Shown: in pieces, positions 18,801-64,000 of the stretch
Position numbering within the stretch: position 1 is the first letter of the stretch
How the letters are laid out: every line of letters starts with the position of its first letter
Assembly: GCA_030068145.1 (NCBI GenBank)
Contig: JAPJBO010000803.1
Location: 40,951-104,950 of the forward strand
Origin: Diplonema papillatum
Taxonomy: Eukaryota; Euglenozoa; Diplonemea; Diplonemida; Diplonemidae
Direction of reading: 5' to 3'
Length of the DNA stretch: 64,000 bases
Notes under the pieces: model-generated
What the model was told of the DNA's origin: nothing
Seen by the model: only the letters and a program-made list of their open reading frames with translations
Database searches by the model: none
Made by a program: the position numbers and the translations under genes

Positions 18801-18869
18801 GGAGGGAAAAAAGGAAGGGGGTTCTTAAAGTTCCCAAATGCTCATAGTTACTCCAGCTGGTAATGGCAC

Positions 18870-19411
<542 letters not shown>

Positions 19412-21310: not shown

Positions 21311-21322
21311 AGGTGGGCAGAA

Positions 21323-27300: not shown

Positions 27301-27703
27301 CGCACGATGGGCGCAAGGGAAGACCGACTGGAAGGCAAGAGCCGAGATGGTAGACAAGGTCCCGGGTGCAGGAGCGTGCAGAGGGGCGCGACCGAAGAAG
27401 GCCCCGAAGGACGCGGTGAACACGGCTCGCCCAGGCGAAATATGCGCACTACATAGGAAGCCCCGATGCAAGGGATGTGCGAAGAAGCGCCTGCCAGCGG
27501 AGACCTGTTGCCGGTATAAACAGCACCATCATGATGGAGATGGCCTAAGGCCGCGGGTGCAATTCTGCACAGCCCACAGACTGGAGCGCTGCGGCGAGTG
27601 TGAAGCTGACAATGAAGGAATCGCGAGGTGCTGTTCGAGGCACCACCCCCAGTTGAAAACGGACCCCTACTCGCAACCTGCGGGAGCATCGGCGGTTACT
27701 TGA
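21323..27703 (+). CDS. LINE-A ORF2 polyprotein: OTU-OTU-AP endonuclease-RT-zinc finger-RNase H-Cys/His tail
   Basis: 2126 codons with no interruption. OTU-like domain 1 has D33-G-N-C36 and H138-Y139; a second is shorter, with D262-G-N-C265 and H368-Y369. An EEP/AP-endonuclease starts near residue 417 (N424, E447 in CQETRV, GDFN with D578 and N580). RT: fingers near 970 (KMKRNSSPG), LDFKKCFD with D1100, MQGCPLS, and YVDD at 1190-1193. A C-x2-C-x9-H-x4-C finger lies at 1536-1554. RNase H has D1745, E1788 and D1815. The last 100 residues hold many Cys and His (CALHRKPRCKGC, CCRYKQHHH, CTAHRLERCGEC), a presumed nucleic-acid-binding tail also present in LINE-C. The enzyme nicks target DNA, primes on it and copies the element RNA. 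The OTU pair may process polyprotein or ubiquitin; that is inference. Confidence 0.95.
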   Translation: MVGGGDVEKEGDLRWIERMARDMGARLTRVSGDGNCQFTAIAESYGGINARALRERVVRNIEANTARYWDHLGGEEMAQYLRRMGTNRTFGDELTLHAAAQVLHCNIWVVNASHRDTVKRWRSDGAGRTIVVTYMPLHYDWLQLPVQSEYVLEQAEANAIPIARLLLVAPRQVGAAQPDPPRPSRRRKSPTAGPQRQQHETQSPGRAEEQPKGNRPVNPQARPRAVSVDAQCRQQRTAEGGNGQLDEVAGLLAAKRVLIEEDGNCQFAALVRGSKLSLAAASLRQKVTWQLRSLPPAALPLEGQTRSEYLYNIAQNGAHGDHTTLQAAAEVLKASIWVLSTRDLTQLRREGRAENPSRVIVLTHRTQHYDALRLPYLALRFLASLAPETTQASVEELTLAVMPRPAAGVDKPRKASTIVLATVNLGSLNSRCRAVAALPADIVACQETRVGPEGKRTCEMYLGAYGKQCFWGEDVPIVVGANGIGQRAPGGTAVITRSSMVASKAHPKTALETRLAESTRVAHAVVATGNARSVLHVISVYAQVGKESGVVRERERFLSDVFEMAAGLGQVPVAIVGDFNTTIEESLSLMSACRGGWTDAAAAAATNAAQEPPPTCWAGAAGTRIDMCFLNAGASQALVEVRTADPQQYEIPTHCPLFVTLDMRTASIPKRTHWIPAPFPKKAPLKNPREEQGALKAALSQRRSVDGAEAVLRNASEVAETYLYEMHKHGLQKSEAKACKGRAEGHSVREAHVSARQAVSARGAGDRTTRQRDKVLGMLRTVIVEASHRLSEGQPGEMTLAERNARSALQRKGPREDLSRHLSAAHGESGGDELERLMKAVEALEGSQREAVAALKQQRTRRWKDRMQMAWNSSDKGDVYRFLAGSRESPSIYLRRRDGTLTACPKEIDDLLRGPEAWGGIFQKYTSIREPQWETFKAQYARYLPAPQRMDCKAISAADVKAALKKMKRNSSPGLHAWRVFELQQLPTEILQLMAEAMNAVETEGRWPEQLMHAILHLLPKPGSTGDPLSQRPITITPVLYRVWAAIRAREALEWMDNVVPSGLHGCRKKHGTDDLVWHLAALIEEAHLTGEPLYGLALDFKKCFDTVPIDIAFRLAEELGFDPTVLRTLRAAYSGMQRHFRMGPVVGEGFVPTNGIMQGCPLSVVLINVLISVWMRHVADIEAAIPLSYVDDVYALLKSLAQLQEAADRSGTFAGLTGMKVCTQLKSLWFTTARDAPEEISYTESNGAGEAVARPETIAKQTTFDVLGVMLTTEQVPPSKPLPQSKRVAERTKMVDTVLKRAACLPLPAGARDLAVSMTAGAKRYYGAAVTTIGKQEVERLRRKVTESVWTGPPRRAQEAVLHVLHHGHRLDPGVVPAYRRITTWAEQVKKWGYAQTMSETAWVHKEELAKLHGPFAFMKEALDGIRWRWVTPTSIAYINEVGEGVVHDAAQEGSTRLLQHDLRHALRLREMVRLAARRGNDFGGVESGVDFAATRRLLEKQDSSLTAYQAGLLRSVIAGATPVTGRTGLSERGCPYCDTQERETVEHLFWKCPAWEQIRAKNGDLNAAQLSWPPCLRLCGVAPANTDLLPRERKELLQLMESLHLFFVAVLTARQGADEMLDRSTRHHRTLEYPRQWRPTEPHELVVPDIAPTAVSAKWKYGPEMWMAFTDWLRGLKWAPPGHELGVSFMELAVDFELRTGCRLPKLKNRYYSAVPLPPAHKTTTARQVLPEGATRGIEVYFDGGARANGTAFAVAGAGAVLYRGGVKDSQIVLPLPSVRSNNVAEYEGMIAGLQLLEEAEGTEGEQCTVRGDSALIIGQTNREIACSEDLKPFLTRAIAKMVALRQRLTLRVEHVKREENVDADALSNAAMDIVQRQRPTRTQQEANLAVFRASGLGKAMSLKELGNAYKKVTGRPWFYGHECATTILTSVGGTIVRGASRRAQLSEATDTVILGIREHVRTLRPARTETTLFPQHLEWAATYVPEKAYPARWAQGKTDWKARAEMVDKVPGAGACRGARPKKAPKDAVNTARPGEICALHRKPRCKGCAKKRLPAETCCRYKQHHHDGDGLRPRVQFCTAHRLERCGECEADNEGIARCCSRHHPQLKTDPYSQPAGASAVT

Positions 27704-41665: not shown

Positions 41666-41939
41666 CAGTACGGATTAGCTTTAAAAGAACCCATATCGAC
41701 GAAGGTCACCCGGAGACTCTAAAATCCCGGATTCTCAAGCGAACTGTCTAACTCCAAAAAAAAAAAAAAAAAAAACGCTAAGAAAATGTGTTATTTCTGT
41801 CTAGCTCCACTATGCTGCCTACACACTCGCAGACAGCAAGCAACCATACATCCACACAAAAAGGAAGAATTGAAGATTAGAGTCGAAACTGCCTGGCTTT
41901 TCACGCCGTAGCAGAACGACCACACCCTACCCAATCCCA

Positions 41940-42110
41940 AACACCCCCTAAACGCGTTAGGGGACTTCACGAGGTTTCACAACGGAACGACTCATCACCC
42001 GAAACGAGCGGCACCCTCTCACTTTTCTCAACCCCCTCCATACCCAAAGCCTCTACGGTCAACCGGAGACTTTAAAATACCGACCTTCTAATCCACAAGT
42101 AACGCTAAAA
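41940..42110 (+). repeat. Dispersed repeat family b, copy just upstream of the PFR start
   Basis: AACGCGTTAGGGGACTTCAC, CCTCTCACTTTTCTCAACCC, CTACGGTCAACCGGAGACTT and TAATCCACAAGTAACGCT. It ends about 100 bp before the PFR ATG. Confidence 0.9.
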
Positions 42111-42149
42111 ACTGCCAGGGCGATTTACATATATTTCTTACACATACAC

Positions 42150-42204
42150 CTACCCCCACCCTCCCGATACCCCCCCCCCCAATCATCTTTTCTTTCTTGA
42201 CAAG
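42150..42204 (+). promoter_or_regulatory. Polypyrimidine tract and spliced-leader acceptor of the PFR gene
   Basis: A long pyrimidine stretch (CCCCCACCCTCCCGATACCC then C run, ATCATCTTTTCTTTCTTGAC) ends with AAG at 42204, three bases before the ATG. This is what trans-splicing would need and gives a 5' UTR of only three bases plus the leader. Confidence 0.55.
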
Positions 42205-42207
42205 ACA

Positions 42208-42321
42208 ATGAAGGCAGACTCGGATATGCTGCGGGAGTTCTACTTCAGCGCCGGGCAGAACTACACCGCGTTCAAGACGAAGAAGCAGAAGGGAGCCCCC
42301 GTTTCGCCTGCGAAGGCGCCC

Positions 42322-42354
<33 letters not shown>

Positions 42355-45300
42355 GTGGAGGAAGCTGCGGCGGTGAGGCCGGCGGCGGCGGCGGACGAGG
42401 AAAGCGCGGAGCAGGCTCCCGGGGGTCAGCAGGAGGAGCAGCGGGCGGCGAAGAGAAAGGCGTCGACTGAGGCAGTCGAGCCGAAGAGGGGCAGTGCGGC
42501 AAAGCCGGAAGACCGCGGCAGCAACCAGCAGCAGCAGCAGCAGCAGCAGCATCAACCCGTCCCGAAGCGGCAGACAAGCAGCCGGAGTGCGGTGAGGGTA
42601 CCCGGAGCCGCGCTGGCGGCTTCGAACCCGGGGCCAGTAGCCGGCGGCATGGCGCTCGAAGCGGCGTCGACGGAGTACATCCTCTTCCTGAAGCAGCAGC
42701 AGGACCTGCAAAAGCACCACAACCGCCTCGAAGAAACGCTCGCCTGCTTCGAAACCGCGAGGAAGGACCAGCAAAAGGAAGTCACCGGCCTCCGGAAGCA
42801 GGCGGCCGAGCTGCTGCGGGACTTGGAGGGCGGGTCCGACTGGAACCTGACTTCGAGGTACAACGTGGACAACCTCGTGAAGGACGCGAGCCTCAGCTTG
42901 CACAACACGCAGCTCACTCCGTTCGATGCGGAAGCGCAGGTACAATCTTTCTGTCCAAAACGTTGGAAAATCTCCTCCCTTTCGACATGGGAAGACTTGC
43001 GATATGAGGCAGTCATATCGCACGTCTTCCTTATATCCCACTTTCAAAGATGATGGCATTTCTTCCTGCCATCCCACCCTCAGCAAGTTTTGATTTTGTG
43101 TCCTTCCCACTTTCAAACAAGATTTGTGCCCTCATATCCCAAGCTCTCAACATGGTGAGAGCTTCGATACCGCGCGCAGGGACCAGCAAAAGGAAGTCAC
43201 CGGCCTCCGGAAGCAGGCGGCCGACCTGCTGCGGGACTTGGAGGGCGGGTCCGACTGGAACCTGACTTCGAGGTACAACGTGGACAACCTCGTGAAGGAC
43301 GCGAGCCTCAGCTTGCACAACACGCAGCTCACTCCGTTCGATGCGGAAGCGCAGGTACAATCTTTCTGTCCAAAACGTTGGAAAATCCCCTCCCTTTCGA
43401 CATGGGAAGACTTGCGATATATCGCACGTCTTCCTTATATCCCACTTTCTAACCCGTATTTGGCCACTTTTGATGATGACATTTCTTCCTGCCATCCCAC
43501 CCTCAGCAAATTTTGATTTTGTGTCCTTCCCACTTTCAAACAAGATTTCCCTCATATCCCAAGCTCTCAATATGGTGAGAGCTTCGATACCGCGCGCAGG
43601 GACCAGCAGAAGGAAGTCACCGGCCTCCGGAAGCAGGCGGCCGAGCTGCTGCGGGACTTGGAGGGCTGGTCCGACTGGAACCTGACTTCGAGGTACAACG
43701 TGGACAACCTCGTGAAGGACGCGAGCCTCAGCTTGCACAACACGCAGCTCACTCCGTTCGATGCGGAAGCGCAGGTACAATCTTTCTGTCCAAAACGTTC
43801 CCTTTTGACATGGGAAGACTTGCGATATGAGGCAAGTCTTCCTTATACCCCCACTCAAACTTATAAAAAACCCCGGATCCCTAAGTGAACTTGCACTCTA
43901 AAAAGTACGCGAAACGTCTGCCAGTCTGTACTATGAAATCAAACCGCAGGTGTTGGAGCTGCAGCAGCAGGTGGCGAACCTGAAGAAACTGAAGCAGGAC
44001 CACCAAGACAAGGAGCACTTCGACCCGCACAAGGTGGCCGTCAACAACGGCCTGCGCAGACTCGACCGGGTGGAGAAGGAGGCGAGGAGCGGCCAGCTCA
44101 ACGTCGCGAAGCTCGCCCGCGTCCCTGACACCCTCCTGATCCAGCTGGAACACCTGTTCGGAACCCCAACGCTGCACTCCCTCCTGGAGTCCCACGAAAC
44201 CGCGATGGAGCACCTGCTCTTCAAACTCGACAGGGCCCGCGAACAAAGGGAAGAGGCCCTCGAAGACGGCGAGATGCAACTCGCCGAAAAGCACTACTAC
44301 GCCATCGTCGACCTGTACGACGAGCTGCAGGGAGAAGTGCTCGAGAAGCTGCACATCGTCGACAAGACGCTCAAGGAAACAGCCGTCTTCGACAAGGTGC
44401 GCGACACGTACCAGCTGAAAGCCGGCGACGAGATCAAGAAGTATGCACACTTCTTTTACCGGCGAGCACTTTTCTTCTCCCTGCACATGCACAGGTGGGA
44501 TAGTAAAATGGCCATTTCAACCCAGCAGCGACAAAATGTCTATTTTTTAGTCGTCATTAAGATCGCAGGTCTTAGAAGATAAGTATATCCGACGAATACC
44601 TAACACTCGTTACAAGGTTAAGTAACCCCGTCGCTATCCCGAAAACATCGTAACTTCACCCCTCGCTTGGGGGAAAACACGCAGTCTTTTATCCCCCGAG
44701 GTTTTATTAGTCGTATAAGATCGCAGGTCTTAGAAGATTAATATATCCGACGAATACCTGACACTCGTTACAGGTTGAATAACCCCGTCGCTATCCCGAA
44801 AACATCGTAACTTTACCCTCTCTCGCGCGGGAAGCCCGCGCGCCTTTGAATGCGAGAGCCCAGGACACAGCTTTATTTTTACGTTAATCAAGTACTGCAG
44901 CGACTCCGCGCATAAGTAGACGATTGTGACAAACACACCGAATCACTGCCTGACCTTTCTACTTTCGATTTATGCATCACCCGCGACGGTGAAGACGAAG
45001 CAGCAGACGGAGCCAGTATACGCAGTAGGAGGAGGATGTATTATCCCGCAATCGAACCAGGTTGTAATACCTAAGCACACACACCTTCTCCGGTAGCTCC
45101 CGGCTCAGCCGACATCCGCGGCCTTCTTAAAAGGAGAAGGGAAATGATCACGGACACAATATCCGTCACTTTGTCCCGAGGGCTGATTTTTGCACGAGGG
45201 ACCATTGGCGGAGAATCCTGTAAACCGTAATTTTCTTAAACCGGTGAAATTAAAACCCGGACGAAAACCACTTTTTTGCCCGACTGCAAACATACTTGTA

Positions 45301-48300
45301 TTGGTGCGAGATGCCGTCCCAGGGCCAACTTCGCTTTGGGACGTCAACTCGTATTGATGCGAGATGCCGTCCCAGGGCCAACTTCGCTTTGGGACGTCAA
45401 CTCGTATTAGTGCGAGATGCCGTCCCAGGGCCAACTTCGCTTTGGGACGTCAACTCGTATTGGTGCGAGATGCCGTCCCAGGGCCAACTTCGCTTTGGGA
45501 CGTCAACTCGTATTGATGCGAGATGCCGTCCCAGGGCCAACTTCGCTTTGGGACGTCAACTCGTATTGGTGCGAGATGCCGTCCCAGGGCCAACTTCGCT
45601 TTGGGACGTCAACTCGTATTGATGCGAGATGCCGTCCCAGGGCCAACTTCGCTTTGGGACGTCAACTCGTATTGGTGCGAGATGCCGTCCCAGGGCCAAC
45701 TTCGCTTTGGGACGTCAACTCGTATTGGTGCGAGATGCCGTCCCAGGGCCAACTTCGCTTTGGGACGTCAACTCGTATTGATGCGAGATGCCGTCCCAGG
45801 GCCAACTTCGCTTTGGGACGTCAACTCGTATTGATGCGAGATGCCGTCCCAGGGCCAACTTCGCTTTGGGACGTCAACTCGTATTGGTGCGAGATGCCGT
45901 CCCAGGGCCAACTTCGCTTTGGGACGTCAACTCGTATTGGTGCGAGATGCCGTCCCAGGGCCAACTTCGCTTTGGGACGTCAACTCGTATTGGTGCGAGA
46001 TGCCGTCCCAGGGCCAACTTCGCTTTGGGACGTCAACTCGTATTGGTGCGAGATGCCGTCCCAGGGCCAACTTCGCTTTGGGACGTCAACTCGTATTGGT
46101 GCGAGATGCCGTCCCAGGGCCAACTTCGCTTTGGGACGTCAACTCGTATTGATGCGAGATGCCGTCCCAGGGCCAACTTCGCTTTGGGACGTCAACTCGT
46201 ATTGGTGCGAGATGCCGTCCCAGGGCCAACTTCGCTTTGGGACGTCAACTCGTATTGGTGCGAGATGCCGTCCCAGGGCCAACTTCGCTTTGGGACGTCA
46301 ACTCGTATTGGTGCGAGATGCCGTCCCAGGGCCAACTTCGCTTTGGGACGTCAACTCGTATTGGTGCGAGATGCCGTCCCAGGGCCAACTTCGCTTTGGG
46401 ACGTCAACTCGTATTGATGCGAGATGCCGTCCCAGGGCCAACTTCGCTTTGGGACGTCAACTCGTATTGGTGCGAGATGCCGTCCCAGGGCCAACTTCGC
46501 TTTGGGACGTCAACTCGTATTGATGCGAGATGCCGTCCCAGGGCCAACTTCGCTTTGGGACGTCAACTCGTATTGGTGCGAGATGCCGTCCCAGGGCCAA
46601 CTTCGCTTTGGGACGTCAACTCGTATTGGTGCGAGATGCCGTCCCAGGGCCAACTTCGCTTTGGGACGTCAACTCGTATTGGTGCGAGATGCCGTCCCAG
46701 GGCCAACTTCGCTTTGGGACGTCAACTCGTATTGGTGCGAGATGCCGTCCCAGGGCCAACTTCGCTTTGGGACGTCAACTCGTATTGGTGCGAGATGCCG
46801 TCCCAGGGCCAACTTCGCTTTGGGACGTCAACTCGTATTGGTGCGAGATGCCGTCCCAGGGCCAACTTCGCTTTGGGACGTCAACTCGTATTGGTGCGAG
46901 ATGCCGTCCCAGGGCCAACTTCGCTTTGGGACGTCAACTCGTATTGATGCGAGATGCCGTCCCAGGGCCAACTTCGCTTTGGGACGTCAACTCGTATTGA
47001 TGCGAGATGCCGTCCCAGGGCCAACTTCGCTTTGGGACGTCAACTCGTATTGGTGCGAGATGCCGTCCCAGGGCCAACTTCGCTTTGGGACGTCAACTCG
47101 TATTGGTGCGAGATGCCGTCCCAGGGCCAACTTCGCTTTGGGACGTCAACTCGTATTGGTGCGAGATGCCGTCCCAGGGCCAACTTCGCTTTGAGACGTC
47201 AACTCGTATTGATGCGAGATGCCGTCCCAGGGCCAACTTCGCTTTGGGACGTCAACTCGTATTGGTGCGAGATGCCGTCCCAGGGCCAACTTCGCTTTGG
47301 GACGTCAACTCGTATTGATGCGAGATGCCGTCCCAGGGCCAACTTCGCTTTGGGACGTCAACTCGTATTGGTGCGAGATGCCGTCCCAGGGCCAACTTCG
47401 CTTTGGGACGTCAACTCGTATTGGTGCGAGATGCCGTCCCAGGGCCAACTTCGCTTTGGGACGTCAACTCGTATTGGTGCGAGATGCCGTCCCAGGGCCA
47501 ACTTCGCTTTGGGACGTCAACTCGTATTGATGCGAGATGCCGTCCCAGGGCCAACTTCGCTTTGGGACGTCAACTCGTATTGGTGCGAGATGCCGTCCCA
47601 GGGCCAACTTCGCTTTGGGACGTCAACTCGTATTGGTGCGAGATGCCGTCCCAGGGCCAACTTCGCTTTGGGACGTCAACTCGTATTGATGCGAGATGCC
47701 GTCCCAGGGCCAACTTCGCTTTGGGACGTCAACTCGTATTGGTGCGAGATGCCGTCCCAGGGCCAACTTCGCTTTGGGACGTCAACTCGTATTGATGCGA
47801 GATGCCGTCCCAGGGCCAACTTCGCTTTGGGACGTCAACTCGTATTGGTGCGAGATGCCGTCCCAGGGCCAACTTCGCTTTGGGACGTCAACTCGTATTG
47901 ATGCGAGATGCCGTCCCAGGGCCAACTTCGCTTTGGGACGTCAACTCGTATTGGTGCGAGATGCCGTCCCAGGGCCAACTTCGCTTTGGGACGTCAACTC
48001 GTATTGGTGCGAGATGCCGTCCCAGGGCCAACTTCGCTTTGGGACGTCAACTCGTATTGGTGCGAGATGCCGTCCCAGGGCCAACTTCGCTTTGGGACGT
48101 CAACTCGTATTGATGCGAGATGCCGTCCCAGGGCCAACTTCGCTTTGGGACGTCAACTCGTATTGGTGCGAGATGCCGTCCCAGGGCCAACTTCGCTTTG
48201 GGACGTCAACTCGTATTGGTGCGAGATGCCGTCCCAGGGCCAACTTCGCTTTGGGACGTCAACTCGTATTGGTGCGAGATGCCGTCCCAGGGCCAACTTC

Positions 48301-51300
48301 GCTTTGGGACGTCAACTCGTATTGATGCGAGATGCCGTCCCAGGGCCAACTTCGCTTTGGGACGTCAACTCGTATTGGTGCGAGATGCCGTCCCAGGGCC
48401 AACTTCGCTTTGGGACGTCAACTCGTATTGGTGCGAGATGCCGTCCCAGGGCCAACTTCGCTTTGGGACGTCAACTCGTATTGGTGCGAGATGCCGTCCC
48501 AGGGCCAACTTCGCTTTGGGACGTCAACTCGTATTGGTGCGAGATGCCGTCCCAGGGCCAACTTCGCTTTGGGACGTCAACTCGTATTGATGCGAGATGC
48601 CGTCCCAGGGCCAACTTCGCTTTGGGACGTCAACTCGTATTGGTGCGAGATGCCGTCCCAGGGCCAACTTCGCTTTGGGACGTCAACTCGTATTGGTGCG
48701 AGATGCCGTCCCAGGGCCAACTTCGCTTTGGGACGTCAACTCGTATTGGTGCGAGATGCCGTCCCAGGGCCAACTTCGCTTTGGGACGTCAACTCGTATT
48801 GGTGCGAGATGCCGTCCCAGGGCCAACTTCGCTTTGGGACGTCAACTCGTATTGGTGCGAGATGCCGTCCCAGGGCCAACTTCGCTTTGGGACGTCAACT
48901 CGTATTGATGCGAGATGCCGTCCCAGGGCCAACTTCGCTTTGGGACGTCAACTCGTATTGGTGCGAGATGCCGTCCCAGGGCCAACTTCGCTTTGGGACG
49001 TCAACTCGTATTGGTGCGAGATGCCGTCCCAGGGCCAACTTCGCTTTGGGACGTCAACTCGTATTGATGCGAGATGCCGTCCCAGGGCCAACTTCGCTTT
49101 GGGACGTCAACTCGTATTGGTGCGAGATGCCGTCCCAGGGCCAACTTCGCTTTGGGACGTCAACTCGTATTGATGCGAGATGCCGTCCCAGGGCCAACTT
49201 CGCTTTGGGACGTCAACTCGTATTGGTGCGAGATGCCGTCCCAGGGCCAACTTCGCTTTGGGACGTCAACTCGTATTGGTGCGAGATGCCGTCCCAGGGC
49301 CAACTTCGCTTTGGGACGTCAACTCGTATTGGTGCGAGATGCCGTCCCAGGGCCAACTTCGCTTTGGGACGTCAACTCGTATTGGTGCGAGATGCCGTCC
49401 CAGGGCCAACTTCGCTTTGGGACGTCAACTCGTATTGGTGCGAGATGCCGTCCCAGGGCCAACTTCGCTTTGGGACGTCAACTCGTATTGGTGCGAGATG
49501 CCGTCCCAGGGCCAACTTCGCTTTGGGACGTCAACTCGTATTGGTGCGAGATGCCGTCCCAGGGCCAACTTCGCTTTGGGACGTCAACTCGTATTGGTGC
49601 GAGATGCCGTCCCAGGGCCAACTTCGCTTTGGGACGTCAACTCGTATTGGTGCGAGATGCCGTCCCAGGGCCAACTTCGCTTTGGGACGTCAACTCGTAT
49701 TGGTGCGAGATGCCGTCCCAGGGCCAACTTCGCTTTGGGACGTCAACTCGTATTGGTGCGAGATGCCGTCCCAGGGCCAACTTCGCTTTGGGACGTCAAC
49801 TCGTATTGATGCGAGATGCCGTCCCAGGGCCAACTTCGCTTTGGGACGTCAACTCGTATTGGTGCGAGATGCCGTCCCAGGGCCAACTTCGCTTTGGGAC
49901 GTCAACTCGTATTGGTGCGAGATGCCGTCCCAGGGCCAACTTCGCTTTGGGACGTCAACTCGTATGGGTGCGAGATGCCGTCCCAGGGCCAACTTCGCTT
50001 TGGGACGTCAACTCGTATTGGTGCGAGATGCCGTCCCAGGGCCAACTTCGCTTTGGGACGTCAACTCGTATTGGTGCGAGATGCCGTCCCAGGGCCAACT
50101 TCGCTTTGGGACGTCAACTCGTATTGATGCGAGATGCCGTCCCAGGGCCAACTTCGCTTTGGGACGTCAACTCGTATTGGTGCGAGATGCCGTCCCAGGG
50201 CCAACTTCGCTTTGGGACGTCAACTCGTATTGGTGCGAGATGCCGTCCCAGGGCCAACTTCGCTTTGGGACGTCAACTCAAGTACGGAAGAATCGACCCT
50301 CCCCGACAAGTACCGGCCGACTTTGCCAAATGCGATGGCGAATTAATGCGCAGTGTGTGTCTACGGGTAGAACCGCTATCTCATCCGCCAAACTGCTGCT
50401 TTCCTTTCATAAAAGCTGCGTGCACATTTCTAGACTGTTTCTCTGAGCAATTCTCACCACGATTATCGAGCCGTTCGACACTCCATTAATGCTGTCCCCT
50501 CTTAGTGCCCAACAATTGCACTCGCTGCTTTCCGTCCATGAAAGCCGTTTGCACAGTCTCGAGCGTTCTCATTAAAGCCATCCCCTTCTTTAATGCCCAG
50601 CAATTGCACTCGCTGCTTTCCGTCCACGAAAGCCGTTTGCACAGTCTCGAGCAATAACCACCACTCTCATTCACCAGCTGCTGCTTTCCATAAAAGCTGC
50701 ATGCCCATCCTCAGCATGAAAATCGAACCGTTCGAACACGTCCTCATCCCCTTCTTTTAATGCCCAGCAATTGCACTCGCTGCTTTTCCTTCCATGAAGT
50801 TTGCCCGCACAGTCTGAAGCAAACCCACCACTATCAGGATCAAGGGCGACAAGGAGGCTTTGAAGCAGAAGTGCGAGCAGGACACGCAGAAGCTGTTTTC
50901 CCTGCGGGAAAAGATCGAGGACGTGGAGAAGCAGATGGTGCTCAAGATGGCGGAGGACTGCCGCAGGAGCGACGAGTCGCTCCGCGTCAACGGCAGCAAG
51001 ATGGAAGCTTGCTGGATGCAGGTATCGCCCCTATACCACCAGTTCTCCATCTTTCGGGTCCCAACAAGTGTACTTAACCTCAAATCCCTTTCCAGTAAAT
51101 CAAGATCGGGCTGTGCTGCGTCCTCAAGGATTGGCACATCTCCCTTTCAGTGGTTGACACCCTAAGCCTCGCACACGTGTTAGACTCCTTGGTCCGTGTT
51201 TCAACGGGTAGTAGAAGATCGCTGTGTCTGACATGAGCCTGCGAGCGTTTAACCACGTCAGGCCAGCGGGAGCAAGGACGTTGTCCGAAGACGCCACTTA

Positions 51301-54300
51301 CCCTTCGCTGACGATGCCGCGGGTCACCTCCTCAACTCATTCCTATCCTGGTCGATCCGAGCAAAACAGGGGGGTTTAGTGGGAGGGCTGGTTGGTGTGA
51401 TCTACTGTTCATCAGAAGTCTTCGCAACTTTTCACAATCAGTGTTGACCCATAGTTTTTGCACAGTTCTGCAAACATCTGCAAAGTCTGCGTGGTACCCA
51501 TTTGCATGCAAATGGCACCCCACCAGCGCAACAAGAAAACAACAAGTTATTTGTGCACGAGGGCGGCAACCGGATCATATGGAAAACATGCCCAAGTTGT
51601 AACAAGTCGTGAAAAGTCCGAACAAGAACACAATAAGTTGTGGAAAGAGTTTGTAGTTGTATCGTTTTCTCCCCCTCTAGCCTCCTTTCTAAATGAGCAC
51701 AAGGCATCCCCTTGCGTATTTTGAGTCGTTACTCGCAAGCCGACGGCCCAACACAGATCGAAGCCTGCGAGCGGGAGTTGTACGTTTTGGAGAGGGAACG
51801 GCATCGCGAAGTGAAGAAGCGTGTCGAAGACAAGGAGAAGGACGAGCAGCGCCGGATGGAGTTCGAACGGTTCTGCCAAGTTTGCGACAGCCACACGGCG
51901 CACCTTGACATGACCATCCGCAACTGCGAGAGCATGATCCACATCTCGAACCTCACGGGCGACTTCGTGCAGAGTGGGTTCACCAGCCTCGCGTCCGACT
52001 TCCAGGCCAAGTCTTCGTCTTACGGAGGCACGGCCCTCGCCCTGCACAAAGAGCACTTGACCATGTTCCGCGGCCTGTTCCTTGCCCTCGGGGATCTCAC
52101 GCATAAAAAGGTCTGCACTTTTTTTTAGAGTTAAAGTTCGCTTGAAATTCCGGGGTTTTAGGGTCTCCGTGTGACCGTTCATGAATGGGTTCTCTTAGAG
52201 CAAGAAAGGGCTATGTGGTTACGGGTTGTATATTTAGTGCACGCTTTCGTTATGGGTTATGGCTAGCCATGTCCGGGACTGTTGTGACCGACACCAAGTA
52301 CATTCCTTCGTGGAGTGTAGTCTTGGGCCCCCCACGTTCTACAAGTTGAGCATTGAGTTCTTTGAGGTGCAAGTGCCATCAAGGCAGGCGAGCACTGTTC
52401 ACGGGCTATCGAGCGTAGAGTTGTTCACGGCCTGCCGCGATTGCTTCGATCTTCGTGGCTTCCCTGTCGGGGATGCGAGCTTCGAGGACTCCTGCAGGGG
52501 TCGCTTCCGCCTCCTTCTGGGAGGCGCGTCTTTGGGCTCGCCGGTTGGCGTGCGCGGAAGGGTTGTTTGTATGGGGATGATGTTCCCCGTTGATGACGTC
52601 GGTGATGATGACGGTGATGAAGGCGGGGAGGTTGGTGAGCTGGCGAGGCACCGCGCCGTTCGCGTGCGTTGCCGCGTCGCTGCTTTCTTGGCCGGGCGCT
52701 TCGGCCCCCGGTGGGTGGTCGGTCGCGGGGTCTCCTGCAGGATACGCTTCCGCCCCTTCCTGGGCGACTCGGACAGTTGCTCAGCCGCAGGCGAGCGCGG
52801 CGTGGCCGCGGGCGCCGGCGTGTTCGTGTTGGGTGGTGCGGCGGGCTTCGTAGCCTTCGGTTCGTCGGCACTGTGGTGCCCTTTGCCGCAGCACGCGGCG
52901 GGTCGTCGCTCTGCGAGCGTCGGCAGCTGGCGGCACCCTTCGCACGGGCCGCGGTTGTGTTCGCGGCACCCGTGGTGCCCTGCGGCACAGCACGTCTTCG
53001 GCGTGTTGCAGACCGCGCACCTGGACATTCGGTGTCGGTCGCAGATCGCGATGGGTAGCCCGTCGTCGGCGGCGTGGTGGTGCCGACAGCACGCCTGCAC
53101 GGTGGGCCCCTGTTTGTCTCCGAGGCGGCGGCAGACCTCACACTTCCCCTTGTAGTGCGCGACGCACTTCGTCGCGTTCCTCTTGTCGACCACCGCGCCC
53201 AGAAAATGGACGGGGTCCGGGTTTGCGGCAGGTCTCTGGGGGGCGGGCCACCGGCCTGCCCTCGCGCGTCGTTCGTCGTTGTACACGCCCCCCTCGCGCG
53301 TCGTTCGTCGTTGTACACGGGCCCATTGTCGTAGGCTCCGTTCCCCTTCAACTGTTCCTGGACGATTCCTCCTGCGGGCATCCGGTGTCGGGGTCTGGGT
53401 TCCAGGCCCGGCAGGCTGGGCAGTCCAACAAAGGACAGTGCCGTCGTCACCGCCTTTATCGATCCGGGCAGGCAGCCGCCGAGCTCTTGCTGGGCCGCCA
53501 GCTTCATGACGGCACTGATCATGCATCGCATGCCGTTCGCTTTCTCGCGAAGCGTTTTCGCCTCCTTCTTGGGCAGCCGTACGTCCAAGCCGGAATACAA
53601 CTCGAAGTCGACAGCGAGCTCAACCGATGCTACGTCGCCGGTCGATGACCACTCAAGTCCCGCGAGCCAGTCCACGAGGGCGAGGAAGGTCCGTTCGTCC
53701 CAGTACCGTAACCACGCCCAAGCCGGGGCGATCCGCTGATACGGGAAATCGTACCTTCGCACCGGATTCTGCCCGCAAAGCTCCCACGGAGTTCTCGCTT
53801 TGCGGTCCTTCCATTCTTGGTTGACGTGCCTCGCACGTTCTGCCAGGATCTCCGCCATGAGGGATTGAACCGGCCCGACCAGATCTCTCGTGCGCGTCGT
53901 AGCAATTCCGTGCTCGAGGAGGCACCTGGGCCAGTCCCTCTTTTCCGCGGCTACGATCGCCGCGTACTCTGCTTTCGCGCGGATCGGGGTGTAGGCACCG
54001 CACCGCCAGAAGATGTGCGCCTCGTCCTCGACGCTCCCGTTGCCGCAGCTCGTACATGCGGGGTCACCTCCCTGATGCATCCGCGAAGTGTGCTGCGCCG
54101 TGTTGACGCCTCCGGCGATCGCCACTCTGATGAGCCGCGCGGTCTGGGGTGGGCAGGCCCGCGATTTCCACAGCGCGTTGGTGGCGTCAAGGTCGACGTC
54201 GGCGATGCCGGCATAACTGCCGCGCCTCGCGACGAGTCTCGCCCGCAGCCGCGTCTTCAGGTCGGAGCGGATATCGTGGTTCCGCTCTGCTGGGGACTTG

Positions 54301-57300
54301 CCCAATGGCAAGTACGGTTCACCGTTTCGTTTTACATCGTCGAGGGGGCCGCCTGCCCAGTCGTGACCGCACGGCTCCAGTCCGTACTTCACAGCGATTC
54401 CTACGGGTCCCAGCGCCGCCGTCACGCGGGGCCCGTACATCTCCCGTATCTTTGCTGCTTGTGGTACGAGGTGCGGGAGTCTCTGGCATGCGGTGTAGAA
54501 TTGCCCCGTTATGCTGTAGGCCATCCGGGTCGCCGGATCCGTCAGATGCGCCTTCTCGAGGATTCCCAGAACTGCCTCGGGTGCTCGCTTCGGGTTCTTC
54601 GTCCCCCATACCGCCGACATGACTCCGGTCGTCAGCTTCTCAACGGATTCCTTGGTCGTTGGGGCGAAGGGTACTCTCGCCAGCGCGGCTGGGAGGATCG
54701 CGGATTGTACTAAGAGCACTCTGCTCGGTTGCGGAATCGGGACGTGACGTAGGTTGTGGGCGGTGCTGGTGGCGGTCTCGAGCCTGGCCGTGTCGTTGTG
54801 GTCGCGCCCCTTCCGTGAGGTGCTCAGTTTGGCCCCAAGGCATTTTAGCGCTGTCGCCTGGGGAAACTTCCTCCCCGTGCTCCGGAGCTGAAGTCGCGAC
54901 ACGTAATCACGGACGGTCGTGAACACAAACGTCTTGTCCATGTTCAACGCCATGCCGGTGAGCCGGCAGAACTCGTCTACTACGTCGACTCCCTTCTGGA
55001 GGGCTGCTTCCGAGATCCTCGTCATCAGATTCGCATCATCCGCGTACGATTCAGTGAGCAATCCGGGTGCTTCTGCCTTCACCGCCTTCATTGGGATGGA
55101 GAGCAACGCGTTGATGAGGATGACTGAGATCGGGCAGCCCTGGAGGATCCCGTTCGTCACCTCGAACTCGTCCCCGACTCCCAGCGGCAGTTTGAAACGC
55201 CTTACGAGCACCCCGTATATTCCCCGCAGTGGCGTCATAATTCGTTCATGCAGCCCGAGTTCCTGCATCAGGCGCATCGTCAGCTCGTGCGGCACGCGGT
55301 CGAAGCACTTCGAGAAGTCAAGGGAGAGCCCGTAGAGCGGGTCTCCGCTTAACAGGGCATACTCGATCTCCATCGCCATCGTCATCAGAGGGTCTTCTCC
55401 GCGGTGGCCAGGGCGGAATCCGTGTTGGCCGTCCTCGATCCAGCCTTCCTGCCAGGTCACTATGTCTTTGAGCCGTCGACAGGCCCAGAGACGGTAAACA
55501 CAGGAGGTCACCGTGATCGGTCTCATCTTCACCGGGTCGTTGTCGTCACCTTTCGGCGTCATGGTGACCAGGGCTGTTTGCAGTGCCCGTGGCCATTCGC
55601 CGGTCCTCTCAACCAGATTCAACAGCTCCGCGAGGGCGTCCAGCATCGGGTCAGGCAACGCCTTCAGCTCTGCCATTCTCCACCCGTCTACTCCACACGC
55701 CCCTTTGGCACTCTTTTTCATCAACAGGGCACGCAGGTCTGCGCCCGTTATCTCCTCCACCTCCATCGGCTGCCGGTGGATGTAGCTCTTGAAGCGGTCG
55801 GCAAAGAGGTTGTATAGCGGCTCCGGCTGCTCCTTGTAGGATCGGAATATCGGATCCCACGCGCTCTGCAGGACGGCATCCATCTCATCGACGTTCGCCG
55901 TGACCCGGTCCGTTCTCAGCGTCGTTGCTTCTCGTCGCGGCTGCCGCCGGCACCAGGCGGCAAGCCCTCGCCGGTCCGTGTCGGCGCGGTTCACCGCCTC
56001 CCTGACGTACTTGCCGTGGCGGGCTGCCATGCCTTCTCGTCCGAGCCGGTTGTTGCGGTCCCGGACTGCCCGCAGCAAGGTTCCACATTCCTGAGCGGTC
56101 GGGAAGTTGAGCATTAAGTTCTCTAAGGTGCAAGTGCCATCAAGGCAGGCGAGCACTGTTCACGGGCTAGCGTTACTTTACGACGTCGTCCGTCGGGAGA
56201 GTCAACGATGATGAGGATGTGGTCAAACTAGTCATTTCCAAGTCAAGTTCAATTCCCGCTCGCTTTCGCGGTGCGAACTTTCCGGGCCGGTTTGGCTGTT
56301 TCCGGGTCGACGATGGGGAAGAAGTCAGGCATTCCTTTTCGAGTTGAGCAGGGGTTACCTTGTAGCCCGTACCGGTCTGTTGTCCGCGTTTATATGTATT
56401 TTCTCGCAGTGTGGTGTTTGGGTTTCGCGGCACTTGCGGTGCTTCACGTGGTGCGGGTTGTTTCCGCCCTAAAATAAGGTTTTTTTTTTGTGTTAACAAT
56501 GCATTGTTGGTACTAAGAATTAGTAGTTGGCAGCGTACTAAAAGCAACTCACCAAATCAGGTGAAAAGCCGCTAGTGCGCACAAACAAACGGAAGCGCCA
56601 TTTCCTGTTTTTGTATAAGCACCTGCTTGGTAGGGAGTACGTGAGACCGCCCTTGCGAAACCTCGAAGGAGCATAGTGTGGTACTCATCAGCATGCCGAG
56701 GACTCCCCACTGTGTTGCAATAAGATTCCAGTCTCAAATGGTGTGATCCACAGTAGAAAACTTAACTTCCCATGAAACTGACTATGAACTTCCGAAGTCC
56801 ATGTACACCTGGGTCCCACTCCCGCATTGTGGGAGTGGCACTCCCACATTGAGGGAGTGGCACTCTCGCATTGAGGGAGTGGCACTCCCGTGAGGGAGTG
56901 GCAATCTCGCATTGATTGTGGGAGTGGCACTCTCGCATTGAGGGAGTGGCACTCTCGCATTGAGGGGGTCCCACTCCCGCATTGTGGGAGTGGCACCCCC
57001 GCATTGAGGGAGTGGCACTCCCGTATTGAGGGAGTGGCACTCTCGCATTGAGGGGGTCCCACTCCCGCATTGAGGGAATGACACTCCCATATTGAGGGAG
57101 TGGACTCTCGCATTGAGGGGCGCATTGTGGGAGTGGCACTCTCGCATTGAGGGGGTCCCACTCTCGCATTGAGGGAGTGGCACTCTCGCATTGAGGGAGT
57201 GGCACTCTCGCATTGATTGTGGGAGTGGCACTCTCGCATTGACGGAGTGGCACTCCCGTGTTGAGGGAGTGCCCTACTTGCTTTGATCATAGGTGTCACG

Positions 57301-58217
57301 GCAAGTTTTGGCAGCCGCTGCTTAACAGTGCATGCTAATCCATGTGGTTCATGTGCTCAAAAGAACTCAGAGCTTAACAAAGTTTGACGTGGGCGCTTTA
57401 GATTTACATCTGAATGACTCCTCAACACAAAACAAGTTGTCGACAACTAACAAGTAAAAGAATAAAACAAACTCACGCAGTTCTTCGCTCACGGGATCAA
57501 CACAAACTGACTGAGCGAATTTCGCCGGAAACACAAACACAAAAGGCTTTTCACGCCGTAGCAGAACGACCACACCCTACCCAATCCCAAGCACCCCCTA
57601 AACGCGTTAGGGGACTTCACAAGGTTTCACAACGGAGTGACACAACACCCGAAACGAGCTGCACCCTCTCACTTTTCTCAACCCCCCGCCATACTCAAGC
57701 CTCTACAGTCAACCGGAGACTTTAAAATACCGACCTTCTAATCCACAAATAACGCTACAAAACGCAGGAGAAGAAGATCGAAGACGTCGACAAGCAGATC
57801 CAAGCGTCGCACATCAACCAAGAGCTCTGCGCGGACACGCTCAATCCGAACGCGAAGCGCTTCAGCGATTTGAAGAAGGAGCTGCTGCGGGTGCGAGACG
57901 ACTTGGAGCAGGACGTGCGGGAGCTGAAGGAGAAGGCGGCGGAGGCCCTCGAGAAGTTCAAGCTCTCCGAAGAGGCCCTGCGGGACGCCGAGGTGGCGTT
58001 CATCCACCCTGTGATCGAGCATCAGGAGCAGTCGCTGGCCACCCGGGCGAAGATGGTCGAGTTCAAAGCCCTGGCCATCGGCCACGTCGACTCGGTGCCC
58101 ATCCGGAACGAGATCGAAGACCTCAAGCGGCAGATCGCGTCGACCAAGCAGCAGGTTGAAAACGTCAACGCCAAGTGCATCCCGACGGCCGCCATGCTCC
58201 CGGCGATAAAAGCCTGA
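42208..58217 (+). CDS. PFR: Paraflagellar rod protein (PFR1/PFR2 family), five exons over 16 kb
   Basis: Exons 42208-42939, 43950-44440, 50838-51021, 51757-52110 and 57768-58217 join in phase with GT-AG borders into 736 codons plus stop. Residues 1-150 are low-complexity (Ala run 39-48, Gln run 107-114) and not typical of the family. From about residue 150 the chain is helical and follows PFR proteins in order: LLRDLEGGSDWNL (202-214), AREQREEALEDGEMQLAEKH in exon 2, EALKQKCEQD in exon 3, REVKKRVEDKEKDEQRRMEF and HKEHLTMFRGLFLALGDL in exon 4, and IEDVDKQIQ, LNPNAKRFSDLKKELLRVRD, AFIHPVIE and RAKMVEFKALA in exon 5. The codon split between exons 2 and 3 restores Lys408. PFR proteins build the lattice beside the axoneme in euglenozoan flagella. 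The introns hold exon copies, a satellite and LINE-C. Confidence 0.93.
43165..43380 (+). pseudogene. Partial copy of PFR exon 1 plus donor, copy 2
   Basis: GACCAGCAAAAGGAAGTCAC through GAAGCGCAG and GTACAATCTTTCTGTCC repeat the last part of exon 1 and the start of intron 1. The left junction (ATACCGCGCGCAGG) differs from exon 1. If the CAG there were used as acceptor, the reading frame would shift by one, so inclusion would break the protein. Confidence 0.9.
43578..43800 (+). pseudogene. Partial copy of PFR exon 1 plus donor, copy 3
   Basis: Third copy, about 413 bp after copy 2, identical at nearly every coding base (GGGCTGG for GGGCGGG is a difference). Units include the intron piece with CTTCCTGCCATCCCACCCTC. 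Confidence 0.9.
44550..44672 (+). repeat. Dispersed repeat family a in PFR intron 2
   Basis: TTAGTCGTCATTAAGATCGC AGGTCTTAGAAG through CATCGTAACTTCACCCCTCG. Confidence 0.85.
44703..45030 (+). repeat. Dispersed repeat family a, long copy in PFR intron 2
   Basis: Second copy 150 bp downstream. The middle carries an extra TCTCGCGCGGGAAGCCCGCG (inverted GCGCGGG/CCCGCGC) to CTCCGCGCATAAGTAG not present at 13938-14165. Confidence 0.85.
45308..50279 (+). repeat. 53 bp satellite, 94 copies, inside PFR intron 2
   Basis: The unit is GAGATGCCGTCCCAGGGCCA, ACTTCGCTTTGGGACGTCAA, CTCGTATTGRTGC. From the first unit at 45308 to the last at 50237 the distance is exactly 93 x 53, so no unit has gained or lost a base. 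Nearly all variation is one G/A site near the end of the unit; rare others include TTGAGACG near 47190 and TATGGGTG near 49965. CGTCCCA and TGGGACG in each unit can pair as a 7 bp stem. Long open frames across the array are by-products. Confidence 0.98.
50500..50830 (+). repeat. Short interspersed repeat in PFR intron 2 (three copies)
   Basis: AATGCCCAGCAATTGCACTC GCTGCTTTCC(G)TCCA(C/T)GAA occurs from 50505, 50590 and 50758, with GCCGTTTGCACAGTCTCGAG after the first two. It runs up to the exon 3 acceptor. Confidence 0.85.
52343..52407. repeat. 65 bp direct repeat flanking LINE-C, left
   Basis: AAGTTGAGCATTGAGTTCTT to TTCACGGGCT, the same orientation as 56104-56168 with three mismatches. Confidence 0.92.
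52408..56103 (-). mobile_element. LINE-C: 5'-truncated non-LTR retrotransposon in PFR intron 4
   Basis: Minus-strand element of 3.7 kb related to LINE-A (same RT layout, finger, ELAVDFEL motif and Cys/His tail) but lacking OTU and endonuclease domains (5' truncation) and RNase H. It ends in AACAACTCTACGCTCGAT with no poly-A. The 65 bp direct repeats on both sides are a target duplication or a pre-existing tandem. Confidence 0.9.
52425..56156 (-). CDS. LINE-C reverse transcriptase ORF, frameshifted C-terminus
   Basis: 1243 codons open, the first 18 or so read from the flanking repeat (MLACLDGTCTLENLMLNF). RT motifs are intact: MKKSAKGACGVDGWRM near 146-161, LSLDFSKCFD with D280, ILQGCPIS, and YADD at 371-374. 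The finger C-x2-C-x9-H-x4-C follows (CTSCGNGSVEDEAHIFWRC). After about residue 990 the frame is wrong: a 32 bp tandem duplication (53261 and 53293, CTCGCGCGTCGTTCGTCGTT) shifts it. The correct Cys/His tail (CVAHYKGKCEVC, CCRHHHAADD, CDRHRMSRCAVC, CCAAGHHGC) continues in the neighbouring frame between about 53250 and 52850. No RNase H motifs are present where LINE-A has them. Not functional as it stands. Confidence 0.9.
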   Translation of the reverse strand: MLACLDGTCTLENLMLNFPTAQECGTLLRAVRDRNNRLGREGMAARHGKYVREAVNRADTDRRGLAAWCRRQPRREATTLRTDRVTANVDEMDAVLQSAWDPIFRSYKEQPEPLYNLFADRFKSYIHRQPMEVEEITGADLRALLMKKSAKGACGVDGWRMAELKALPDPMLDALAELLNLVERTGEWPRALQTALVTMTPKGDDNDPVKMRPITVTSCVYRLWACRRLKDIVTWQEGWIEDGQHGFRPGHRGEDPLMTMAMEIEYALLSGDPLYGLSLDFSKCFDRVPHELTMRLMQELGLHERIMTPLRGIYGVLVRRFKLPLGVGDEFEVTNGILQGCPISVILINALLSIPMKAVKAEAPGLLTESYADDANLMTRISEAALQKGVDVVDEFCRLTGMALNMDKTFVFTTVRDYVSRLQLRSTGRKFPQATALKCLGAKLSTSRKGRDHNDTARLETATSTAHNLRHVPIPQPSRVLLVQSAILPAALARVPFAPTTKESVEKLTTGVMSAVWGTKNPKRAPEAVLGILEKAHLTDPATRMAYSITGQFYTACQRLPHLVPQAAKIREMYGPRVTAALGPVGIAVKYGLEPCGHDWAGGPLDDVKRNGEPYLPLGKSPAERNHDIRSDLKTRLRARLVARRGSYAGIADVDLDATNALWKSRACPPQTARLIRVAIAGGVNTAQHTSRMHQGGDPACTSCGNGSVEDEAHIFWRCGAYTPIRAKAEYAAIVAAEKRDWPRCLLEHGIATTRTRDLVGPVQSLMAEILAERARHVNQEWKDRKARTPWELCGQNPVRRYDFPYQRIAPAWAWLRYWDERTFLALVDWLAGLEWSSTGDVASVELAVDFELYSGLDVRLPKKEAKTLREKANGMRCMISAVMKLAAQQELGGCLPGSIKAVTTALSFVGLPSLPGLEPRPRHRMPAGGIVQEQLKGNGAYDNGPVYNDERRARGACTTTNDARGQAGGPPPRDLPQTRTPSIFWARWSTRGTRRSASRTTRGSVRSAAASETNRGPPCRRAVGTTTPPTTGYPSRSATDTECPGARSATRRRRAVPQGTTGAANTTAARAKGAASCRRSQSDDPPRAAAKGTTVPTNRRLRSPPHHPTRTRRRPRPRRARLRLSNCPSRPGRGGSVSCRRPRDRPPTGGRSARPRKQRRGNARERRGASPAHQPPRLHHRHHHRRHQRGTSSPYKQPFRARQPASPKTRLPEGGGSDPCRSPRSSHPRQGSHEDRSNRGRP
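56104..56168. repeat. 65 bp direct repeat flanking LINE-C, right
   Basis: AAGTTGAGCATTAAGTTCTC to TTCACGGGCT. Continues into GACGTCGTCCGTCGGGAGAG and further sequence also present, inverted, at 41217-41318. Confidence 0.92.
56812..57272. repeat. 22 bp tandem repeat, about 20 copies
   Basis: Unit GGGAGTGGCACTCTCGCATT GA with variants (CCCGCATTGA, GGGGTCCCACT, TTGTGGGAG). GGGAGTG and CACTCCC give overlapping short inverted repeats. A small related patch is at 61258-61325. Confidence 0.95.
57370..57500 (+). repeat. Dispersed repeat family g, copy
   Basis: AACAAAGTTTGACGTGGGCG, TTAGATTTACATCTGAATGA, then AAGTTGTCGACAACTAACAA and AACTCACGCAGTTCTTC. Confidence 0.8.
57565..57760 (+). repeat. Dispersed repeat family b, copy at the acceptor of PFR exon 5
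   Basis: TTTTCACGCCGTAGCAGAAC, ACGCGTTAGGGGACTTCACA and CAGTCAACCGGAGACTTTAA to ACAAATAACGCTACAA, then AACGCAG and exon 5. The repeat ends 7 bp before the splice junction. Confidence 0.9.
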
Positions 58218-62235: not shown

Positions 62236-64000
62236 CGACTGTGTTTTAAGTCGAGTTTGGTCTGTGTTTTAAGTCGAGTTTGTGTTTTAAGTCGAGTTTG
62301 GTCTGTGTTTTGAGTCGAGTTTGGTCTGTGTTTTAAGTCGAGTTTGTGTTTTAAGTCGAGTTTGGTCTGTGTTTTAAGTCGAGTTTGTGTTTTAAGTCGA
62401 GTTTGTGTTTTAAGTCGAGTTTGGTCTGTGTTTTAAGTCGAGTTTGTGTTTTAAGTCGAGTTTGTTATTTAAGTCGAGTTTGGTCTGTGTTTTAAGTCGA
62501 GTTTGTGTGTTAAGTCGAGTTTGTGTTTGAAGTCGAGTTTGGTCTGTGTTTTAAGTCGAGTTTGTGTTTTAAGTCGAGTTTGTGTTTTAAGTCGAGTTTG
62601 TGTTTTAAGTCGAGTTTGTGTTTTAAGTCGAGTTTGTGTTTTAAGTCGAGTTTGGTCTGTGTTTTGAGTCGAGTTTGGTCTGTGTTTTAAGTCGAGTTTG
62701 TGTTTTAAGTCGAGTTTGGTCTGTGTTTTAAGTCGAGTTTGTGTGTTAAGTCGAGTTTGTGTTTTAAGTCGAGTTTGGTCTGTGTTTTGAGTCGAGTTTG
62801 TGTTTTAAGTCGAGTTTGTTATTTTAAGTCGAGTTTGGTCTGTGTTTTAAGTCGAGTTTGTGTGTTAAGTCGAGTTTGTGTTTGAAGTCGAGTTTGTGTT
62901 TTTAAGTCGAGTTTGTGTTTTAAGTCGAGTTTGTGTTTTAAGTCGAGTTTGTGTTTTAAGTCGAGTTTGTGTGTTAAGTCGAGTTTGTGTTTGAAGTCGA
63001 GTTTGGTCTGTGTTTTGAGTCGAGTTTGTGTTTTAAGTCGAGTTTGTGTTTTAAGTCGAGTTTGTGTTTTAAGTCGAGTTTGTGTTTTAAGTCGAGTTTG
63101 TGTTTTAAGTCGAGTTTGTGTTTTAAGTCGAGTTTGTGTTTTAAGTCGAGTTTGGTCTGTGTTTAAGTCGAGTTTGGTCTGTGTTTTAAGTCGAGTTTGG
63201 TCTGTGTTTTAAGTCGAGTTTGGTCTGTGTTTTAAGTCGAGTTTGTGTTTTAAGTCGAGTTTGGTCTGTGTTTTGAGTCGAGTTTGGTCTGTGTTTTAAG
63301 TCGAGTTTGTGTTTTAAGTCGAGTTTGGTCTTGTTTTAAGTCGAGTTTGTGTGTTAAGTCGAGTTTGTGTTTTAAGTCGAGTTTGGTCTGTGTTTTGAGT
63401 CGAGTTTGTGTTTTTAAGTCGAGTTTGTTATTTAAGTCGAGTTTGGTCTGTGTTTTAAGTCGAGTTTTGTGTGTTAAGTCGAGTTTGTGTTTGAAGTCGA
63501 GTTTGGTCTGTGTTTTGAGTCGAGTTTGTGTTTTAAGTCGAGTTTGTGTTTTAAGTCGAGTTTGTGTTTTAAGTCGAGTTTGTGTTTAAGTCGAGTTTGT
63601 GTTTTAAGTGAGTTTGGTCTGTGTTTTGAGTCGAGTTTGTGTTTTAAGTCGAGTTTGTGTTTTAAGTCGAGTTTGGTCTGTGTTTTAAGTCGAGTTTGTG
63701 TGTTAAGTCGAGTTTGTGTTTTGCGTCGAGTTTGGTCTGTGTTTTGAGTCGAGTTTGTGTTTTAAGTCGAGTTTGTTATTTAAGTCGAGTTTGGTCTGTG
63801 TTTTAAGTCGAGTTTGTGTGTTAAGTCGAGTTTGTGTTTGAAGTCGAGTTTGTGTTTTAAGTCGAGTTTGTGTTTTAAGTCGAGTTTGTGTTTTAAGTCG
63901 AGTTTGTGTTTTAAGTCGAGTTTGTGTTTTAAGTCGAGTTTGTGTTTGAAGTCGAGTTTGGTCTGTGTTTTAAGTCGAGTTTGTGTTTTAAGTCGAGTTT
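62236..64000 (+). repeat. Mixed 18/23 bp satellite reaching the window end
   Basis: Two interspersed units, AAGTCGAGTTTGTGTTTT (18 bp) and AAGTCGAGTTTGGTCTGTGT TTT (23 bp), with G/A change (TTTGAGTCG) and small-indel variants. A higher-order block (TTATTTAAG unit, then GGTCTGTG, then TGTGTTAAG, then TGTTTGAAG) recurs at about 62465, 62820, 63428 and 63775. The array is cut by the window edge. Confidence 0.96.

Follow-up and report, generated by a model that had tools for sequence, protein, structure and literature searches.

The locus raises the question of whether a gene of the paraflagellar rod (PFR) family, its exons standing apart between a satellite, exon copies and retroposons, is real and intact, and of how its introns came to hold so much. 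The window analysed, 64,000 nucleotides (C803:40951-104950) of the Diplonema papillatum assembly, was scanned with Rfam and for tRNAs without a match, and paralogs and repeats were searched for in the assembly as a whole (271.4 Mb, 2,910 contigs). The published account of the D. papillatum assembly gives 280.3 Mb, 6,181 contigs, an N50 of 190 kb and GT-AG introns (PMC10161547). The gene model comprises five exons:

42208..42939, + strand: exon 1 of the PFR-like gene (splice and frame check, paralog matches, alignment to C285)
43950..44440, + strand: exon 2 (splice and frame check, paralog matches)
50838..51021, + strand: exon 3 (PF05149 profile positions 8-65)
51757..52110, + strand: exon 4 (PF05149 profile positions 67-184)
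57768..58217, + strand: exon 5, including the stop (PF05149 profile positions 185-285)

Joined, the exons give 2,211 nt, or 736 codons without an internal stop, with GT/AG borders at all four introns and phases 0, 2, 0 and 0, so that the original prediction of a full PFR-family protein in these phases stood, as did its expectation that no non-PFR family would match better. PF05149 Flagellar_rod was the single Pfam match to the whole protein at E ≤ 0.01 (4.9e-66, 223.6 bits against a curated cut-off of 23.4), pairing residues 404-688 with profile positions 1-285 of 287. Scanned singly, exons 3, 4 and 5 tile the profile with neither gaps nor overlaps, and because these matches adjoin, the placement of junctions 3 and 4 is exact to the codon. 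Omission of exon 4 lowers the score to 95.8 bits, less than half; by itself this exon also has a weak Ribosomal_L33 match (3.8e-4) under the family cut-off. Scanned alone against Pfam, exon 2 showed no PFR match and exon 1 nothing below 0.01, and a PDB sequence search with the protein returned no PFR relatives, its ten matches being at chance level (best E 0.47). Junctions 1 and 2 fall beyond the Pfam domain or just at its border.

Across the genome, 20 contigs carry 30 exon-level matches to PF05149; two of these matches are the window gene itself, and some matches of equal score may be assembly duplicates. By protein search the window gene's own exons occur once, and contig C561 carries two PFR genes in tandem; the predicted single-copy appearance thus holds for the exons and fails for the family. 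Single-frame paralog matches on C561 (two), C285, C235 and C653 span junction 1 at 26-28% identity, the C653 match containing a stop; the frames jointly cover residues 118-329 of the window protein, and on these contigs there are matches to residues within 118-400. Junctions 2-4 are spanned by one 583-aa frame on C381 (residues 276-707, 27% identity). In a global alignment to the canonical paralog C285, 35% identical over 512 residues with the N-terminal part included, junctions 2, 3 and 4 are free of gaps; a 3-residue gap lies at junction 1, which is for that reason supported but not proved to the codon. On frame, homology and junctions, with junction 1 placed within a few residues, the gene is real, apparently intact and of the PFR family.

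The reading that we prefer, and hold to be highly probable, is that of a diplonemid PFR-family gene whose transcript would undergo trans-splicing at its 5' end and lose four GT-AG introns by cis-splicing. The product would be a structural flagellar-rod protein of 736 residues, which diverges from its canonical PFR paralogs and has an N-terminal extension of its own. We infer the splicing of the gene, its flagellar-rod function and its branch-point use. The trophic flagella of D. papillatum are described as having no rod (PMC5845003, PMC8061765), which counts against this reading.

The N-terminal extension (residues 1-147, 42208-42648) is low in complexity, as had been predicted for the first ~150 residues, and gene-specific. 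It precedes the start of the canonical paralogs, which aligns with Met148, and since the canonical models begin near that methionine, residues 1-147 are a private extension. Their GC content by codon position (.73/.57/.83, against.63/.30/.88 in exons 2-5) is coding-like but weaker, and their codon-usage score is 0.13 against a maximum of 0.12 in 500 shuffles, the rest of the gene scoring 0.38-0.40; Met148 could be the true start. Upstream of the ATG lie:

41865..42111, + strand: older SINE-like copy (family A), just upstream of the gene, 93.5% identity
42117-42118, + strand: candidate spliced-leader acceptor AG, read from the sequence (alternative at 42203-42204)

Use of the AG at 42203-42204 would leave a 5'UTR of 3 nt, and that at 42117-42118, the sole other AG in the stretch that separates the ATG from the upstream retroposon, one of 89 nt; a 5'UTR of ~70 bp has been reported for D. 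papillatum (PMC10161547). The AG at 42117-42118 has the A of a CTAAT branch motif 27 nt ahead of its end. The tract at 42204 is the richer in pyrimidines. Both are candidates, neither of them proved.

The introns contain the following features:

43161..43354, + strand: copy 1 of the last 194 nt of exon 1, followed by donor and intron start (intron 1)
43581..43774, + strand: copy 2 of the last 194 nt of exon 1 (intron 1)
43864..43904, + strand: 3' end, 45 nt ahead of the intron 1 splice site, of a dispersed repeat belonging to retroposon family B
45294..50279, + strand: 53-bp satellite, 94 copies, 4,986 bp (intron 2)
52122..56156, - strand: antisense LINE with ORF 52425-56156, RVT_1 7e-23, 3' end 11 nt after the donor, 5' limit provisional (intron 4)
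56817-57271: minisatellite (intron 4)
57545..57757, + strand: SINE-like element (family A), truncated at its 5' end and flanked on either side by ACAAAA (intron 4)

All of the contents originally predicted for the introns, namely two exon copies, a satellite of ~5 kb and a LINE, were recovered, the LINE with a reverse transcriptase domain. Intron 1 is built on a 415-bp unit present in 2.5 copies, in which the exon parts differ at 3-6 of 194 nt without indels and the intron parts show many gap columns; between copies 1 and 2, substitutions number 5/194 in the exon part and 5/207 in the intron part (p=1). A genome search finds the exon copies at this locus only and the 41-nt repeat end near the intron 1 acceptor at many places. 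The 53-bp satellite is likewise local, 43 of its 44 genome matches lying in the intron 2 array and the other being a 33-bp match on C981. Terminal inverted repeats pairing the intron ends were sought in all four introns: intron 1 scored 31 against a shuffle maximum of 25, probably from its internal 415-bp repeats, introns 2 and 3 fell under the 95% level of shuffles, and intron 4, which just reaches that level in 500 shuffles (21 versus 21), was not accepted. Taken together, the introns were probably once shorter and then grew, intron 1 presumably by tandem duplication of the end of exon 1, intron 2 by a private satellite, and introns 1 and 4 by retroposon insertions.

The SINE-like family was described from 31 aligned copies (30 fetched, including that in intron 4, plus the upstream copy), the genome search having scored 40 of 1,927 first-look candidates. 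The copies share a single common 3' end; several reach a common 5' end at a full length of 368 bp and others are truncated. Direct repeats at the ends of 28 of the 30 fetched copies (L029 and L030 out) averaged 3.36 nt, against 1.64 nt for re-paired flanks and a maximum of 2.61 nt in 200 shuffles, with the mis-anchored L034 and L035 counted as zero and the flanks of L031 and L032 being identical. Some ten of the 28, those two mis-anchored copies among them, have no direct repeats. Short length, a common 3' end, 5' truncation and a short target-site duplication, missing from several copies, agree with a SINE. An 8-bp target duplication considered for the upstream copy was rejected, as other copies show that these bases belong to the element.

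What is new here is the recent SINE-like element 10 nt ahead of exon 5, with a branch-point-like CTAAT. This copy, 217 bp long, is ~99% identical to other copies, and it sits between what would have been the earlier branch region of intron 4 and the CAG at its end. Without it, the empty site would offer an A/C-rich acceptor tract in which CTGAC stands 39 nt before the end of the intron; in the filled site, the CTAAT carried by the SINE stands 26 nt from the intron end. An insertion within the acceptor could impair splicing. The SINE 3' end (CTAAT plus A/C-rich tail) resembles the acceptor tract of these PFR genes, from which we infer that splicing to exon 5 can continue.

The 3' ends of the two retroposon families in PFR introns, A and B, were then surveyed in 19 modelled PFR introns (28,977 nt). 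All six ends found lie within 45 nt of a splice site: five, in sense orientation, stand 10-45 nt off the 3' splice site; the sixth is antisense, 11 nt from the 5' splice site. Under uniform placement each end would have a 3% chance of lying so near. The count of 6/6 is biased in that acceptors were where both families first came to notice; once the two prompting cases are set aside it becomes 4/4 (p about 8e-7, uniform placement), and with the strongest matches only, 2/2 (9e-4). The fair count is 4/4 or fewer, the C561a match being a 25-nt piece with a projected end. YTRAY, the branch signature of Thakur et al., found in only 2-16% of introns (PMC12621601), occurs in 5/19 PFR introns, in three of those five within a retroposon 3' end.

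At the PFR loci, chosen for their exons, 2/3 ends are followed by coding-like sequence; elsewhere this was seen after none of 29 other SINE copies (random flanks, ~1%) and after 1/13 family-B ends in SINE loci (one too short to score), in a test that includes the same-flank pairs L031/L032 and L030/L036. Homing of the SINE to exons found no support in the 0/29 result or in CAG motifs, which lie within 14 nt of the 3' end in 7/28 anchored copies against 5.2 expected. On the simplest reading, the introns were formerly short, and insertions within short introns necessarily end close to a splice site. Median introns measure 41-42 nt in D. japonicum and S. specki and 74 and 107 nt in two other species (PMC12621601); for D. 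papillatum, PMC10161547 gives the median only as 'below 1 kbp'.

Intron positions also differ between the window gene and its paralogs. C561a, C561b and C285 have a 543-residue core in common, interrupted by phase 0 introns after residues 186, 250 and 305; C235 has introns after residues 177, 250, 289, 336 (phase 1) and 358; and C381 has one credible intron, after residue 71, a second of 39 nt proposed by the aligner not being credible. The introns of the window gene correspond to residues 102-106, 263 (phase 2), 325 and 443, and none of the four coincides with the eight positions in the canonical paralogs and C381, a comparison that leaves out the weaker models C238, C30, C883 and C653 and the unmodelled paralogs. 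A tree of seven paralogs had no supported branches.

Among C561a, C561b and C285, whose models end at exon 4 with a possible further last exon outside, sequence identity is confined to exons. Exons 1, 2 and 4 (192-714 nt) differ by 0-4 nt each, yet identity extends just 1-8 nt into most introns, and BLAST leaves nearly all of the intron sequence unaligned. Intron 3 of C561b and C285 is exceptional (87%, the 30 nt ahead of exon 4 being identical), as are a stretch of 26 nt past exon 4 that is identical between C561a and C285, and short simple repeats. In exon 3, C561a departs from the other two at 20-21 of 165 sites, almost all of them third positions. Gene conversion that acts exon by exon and is stopped by unlike introns would account for the pattern; an effect of assembly is a possible alternative. 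A tentative and rather doubtful proposal for the genome at large is that the 3' splice signals of introns are time and again supplanted by retroposon 3' ends, after which the introns become swappable around exons homogenised by gene conversion. A-rich target choice would favour sense insertion into A/C-rich acceptor tracts, the element's branch-point-like motif and tail would substitute for the old signals, and introns might be exchanged around identical exons; an example may be the three canonical PFR copies, most of whose exons show 0-4 mismatches.

Against the preferred reading of a working gene stands that of a decaying one, in which the retroposon load, foremost the SINE within the acceptor of intron 4, has already destroyed splicing or is in the course of doing so, the canonical paralogs carrying out the function. 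The near-identity of that SINE to other genome copies marks it as recent, the LINE 3' end region is up to 99% identical to other copies, and the C653 paralog carries stops. We nevertheless consider decay quite unlikely, as the 736 codons hold neither stop nor frameshift, the coding signature by codon position is still intact, and the insertion spares CAG|G and adds the branch-point-like CTAAT. It is highly improbable that the exon copies of intron 1 are alternative exons, each adding a 65-residue repeat: both are open, in phase and without an indel over 194 nt, with the donor intact, but their exon and intron parts are equally substituted, the in-phase acceptor would be GAG rather than CAG, and the CAG within the copies is out of phase. 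Such repeats are moreover reported in dozens of D. papillatum gene models (PMC10161547), and in the one worked example of that paper the array lies upstream of the gene and is absent from the mature mRNA.

The introns themselves might instead have been gained in the manner of introners, by retroposons that inserted in exons and supplied the splice sites. The unshared intron positions and the clustering of 6/6 ends at 10-45 nt from splice sites would fit such gain, and both are explained by insertion into short pre-existing introns. The spacers of 10-45 nt vary among introns and are not element sequence, and at loci not chosen for exons almost no ends precede coding-like sequence (0/29 and 1/13). 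Introners are recognised by element copies that make up introns at numerous loci and themselves carry the splice sites, and here the splice sites lie outside the element. We regard intron gain by this route as very unlikely, and growth of pre-existing introns in a PFR-family gene remains our preferred account.

The prediction of a diplonemid-like genome agrees with what is published for D. papillatum, including GT-AG introns and exon-1 repeats in intron 1 (PMC10161547). That source reports introns in ~41% of genes, transposons inside introns, very long introns and repetition of the 3' end of exon 1 within intron 1, so that of the unusual architecture originally claimed, the expanded introns are present but are not new: the architecture is known in kind for D. 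papillatum, and the gene is ordinary in kind for its genome. In the same source, U2 genes are said to form rows with as many as 27 members, and an SL-5S-U2 repeat is called exceptional; in our search, which had 2,120 first-look candidates, 27 of the 46 U2 matches listed lie on C1335, and 5S adjoins U2 in one (L068) of three U2 loci scanned of four fetched, the other two holding ~1.5 kb on each side. The literature passages searched gave no description of the gene's structure. The locus offers a worked example of a flagellar structural gene kept in frame while repeats overrun its introns, in the sister group of the intron-poor kinetoplastids. Its unshared intron positions and the retroposon ends clustered at splice sites make diplonemid intron growth and turnover directly testable, and these ends and the exon-confined homogenisation are two side observations that merit a genome-wide test.

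Compared with known systems, the gene resembles introners (PMC9860276) in the tie between mobile elements and introns and differs in that its element sits inside an intron with flanks of its own. With the repeat-bounded genes of D. papillatum (PMC10161547) it shares exon-1 repeats in intron 1, intron transposons and very long introns; it differs in kind of gene, the main text of that paper having no mention of PFR genes ('PFR' and 'paraflagellar', 0 occurrences). Like the window gene, the canonical PFR genes of this genome (the C561 pair, C285 and C235) have a PFR domain, an N-terminal region alignable over ~512 residues and GT-AG introns, those of C235 also including two of 5.3 and 4.4 kb, but their introns, at residues 177-358, have none in common with it, the N-terminal extension is absent and the C561 pair stands in tandem. 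The likeness to kinetoplastids lies in the paraflagellar rod proteins, which we take to belong to PF05149 there too. Kinetoplastid PFR genes are not known to contain introns, whereas the window gene has four. Of the contrast originally drawn, the tandem arrangement has support in the literature: the PFR genes of T. brucei form invariant tandem arrays (PMC1855330), in contrast to the window gene, whose exons occur once, though the C561 pair is tandem.

A core of 543 residues was common to three canonical PFR paralogs in the same genome, namely the tandem pair C561a and C561b on contig C561 and the gene on C285 (L059, L060 and L061). Among these three genes, exon identity reached 99-100%, with the exception of exon 3 of C561a, and most of the introns occupying the same positions could not be aligned with one another. 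The paralog locus on contig C653 (L065) carried in-frame stops and aligned poorly through its middle, and is probably a pseudogene.

Besides the PFR gene, the window contained further LINEs and several tandem repeats:

5513-9076: tandem array, seven copies of a 496-bp unit
12039-12226: 40-bp array
18867-19409: CA repeats (n = 272)
19451-27703, plus strand: LINE with a first ORF of 619 aa and a further ORF of 2126 aa
28891-32846, minus strand: second LINE, with an endonuclease ORF (564 aa) and a reverse transcriptase ORF (623 aa)
62240-64000: tandem array of an 18-bp unit closing the contig (GC 0.38, strong skew)

Within the plus-strand LINE, the 2126-aa ORF encoded OTU protease, endonuclease, reverse transcriptase and RNase H domains. 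The end of the contig coincided with that of the window (64000).

Both ends of the antisense LINE in intron 4 of the PFR gene (window 52122-52411 and 56104-56488) matched many places across the genome, where the two adjoined each other and the long ORF was missing from between them. This arrangement looks like that of a shortened version of the intron 4 LINE, which would form with it something like an autonomous/non-autonomous pair.
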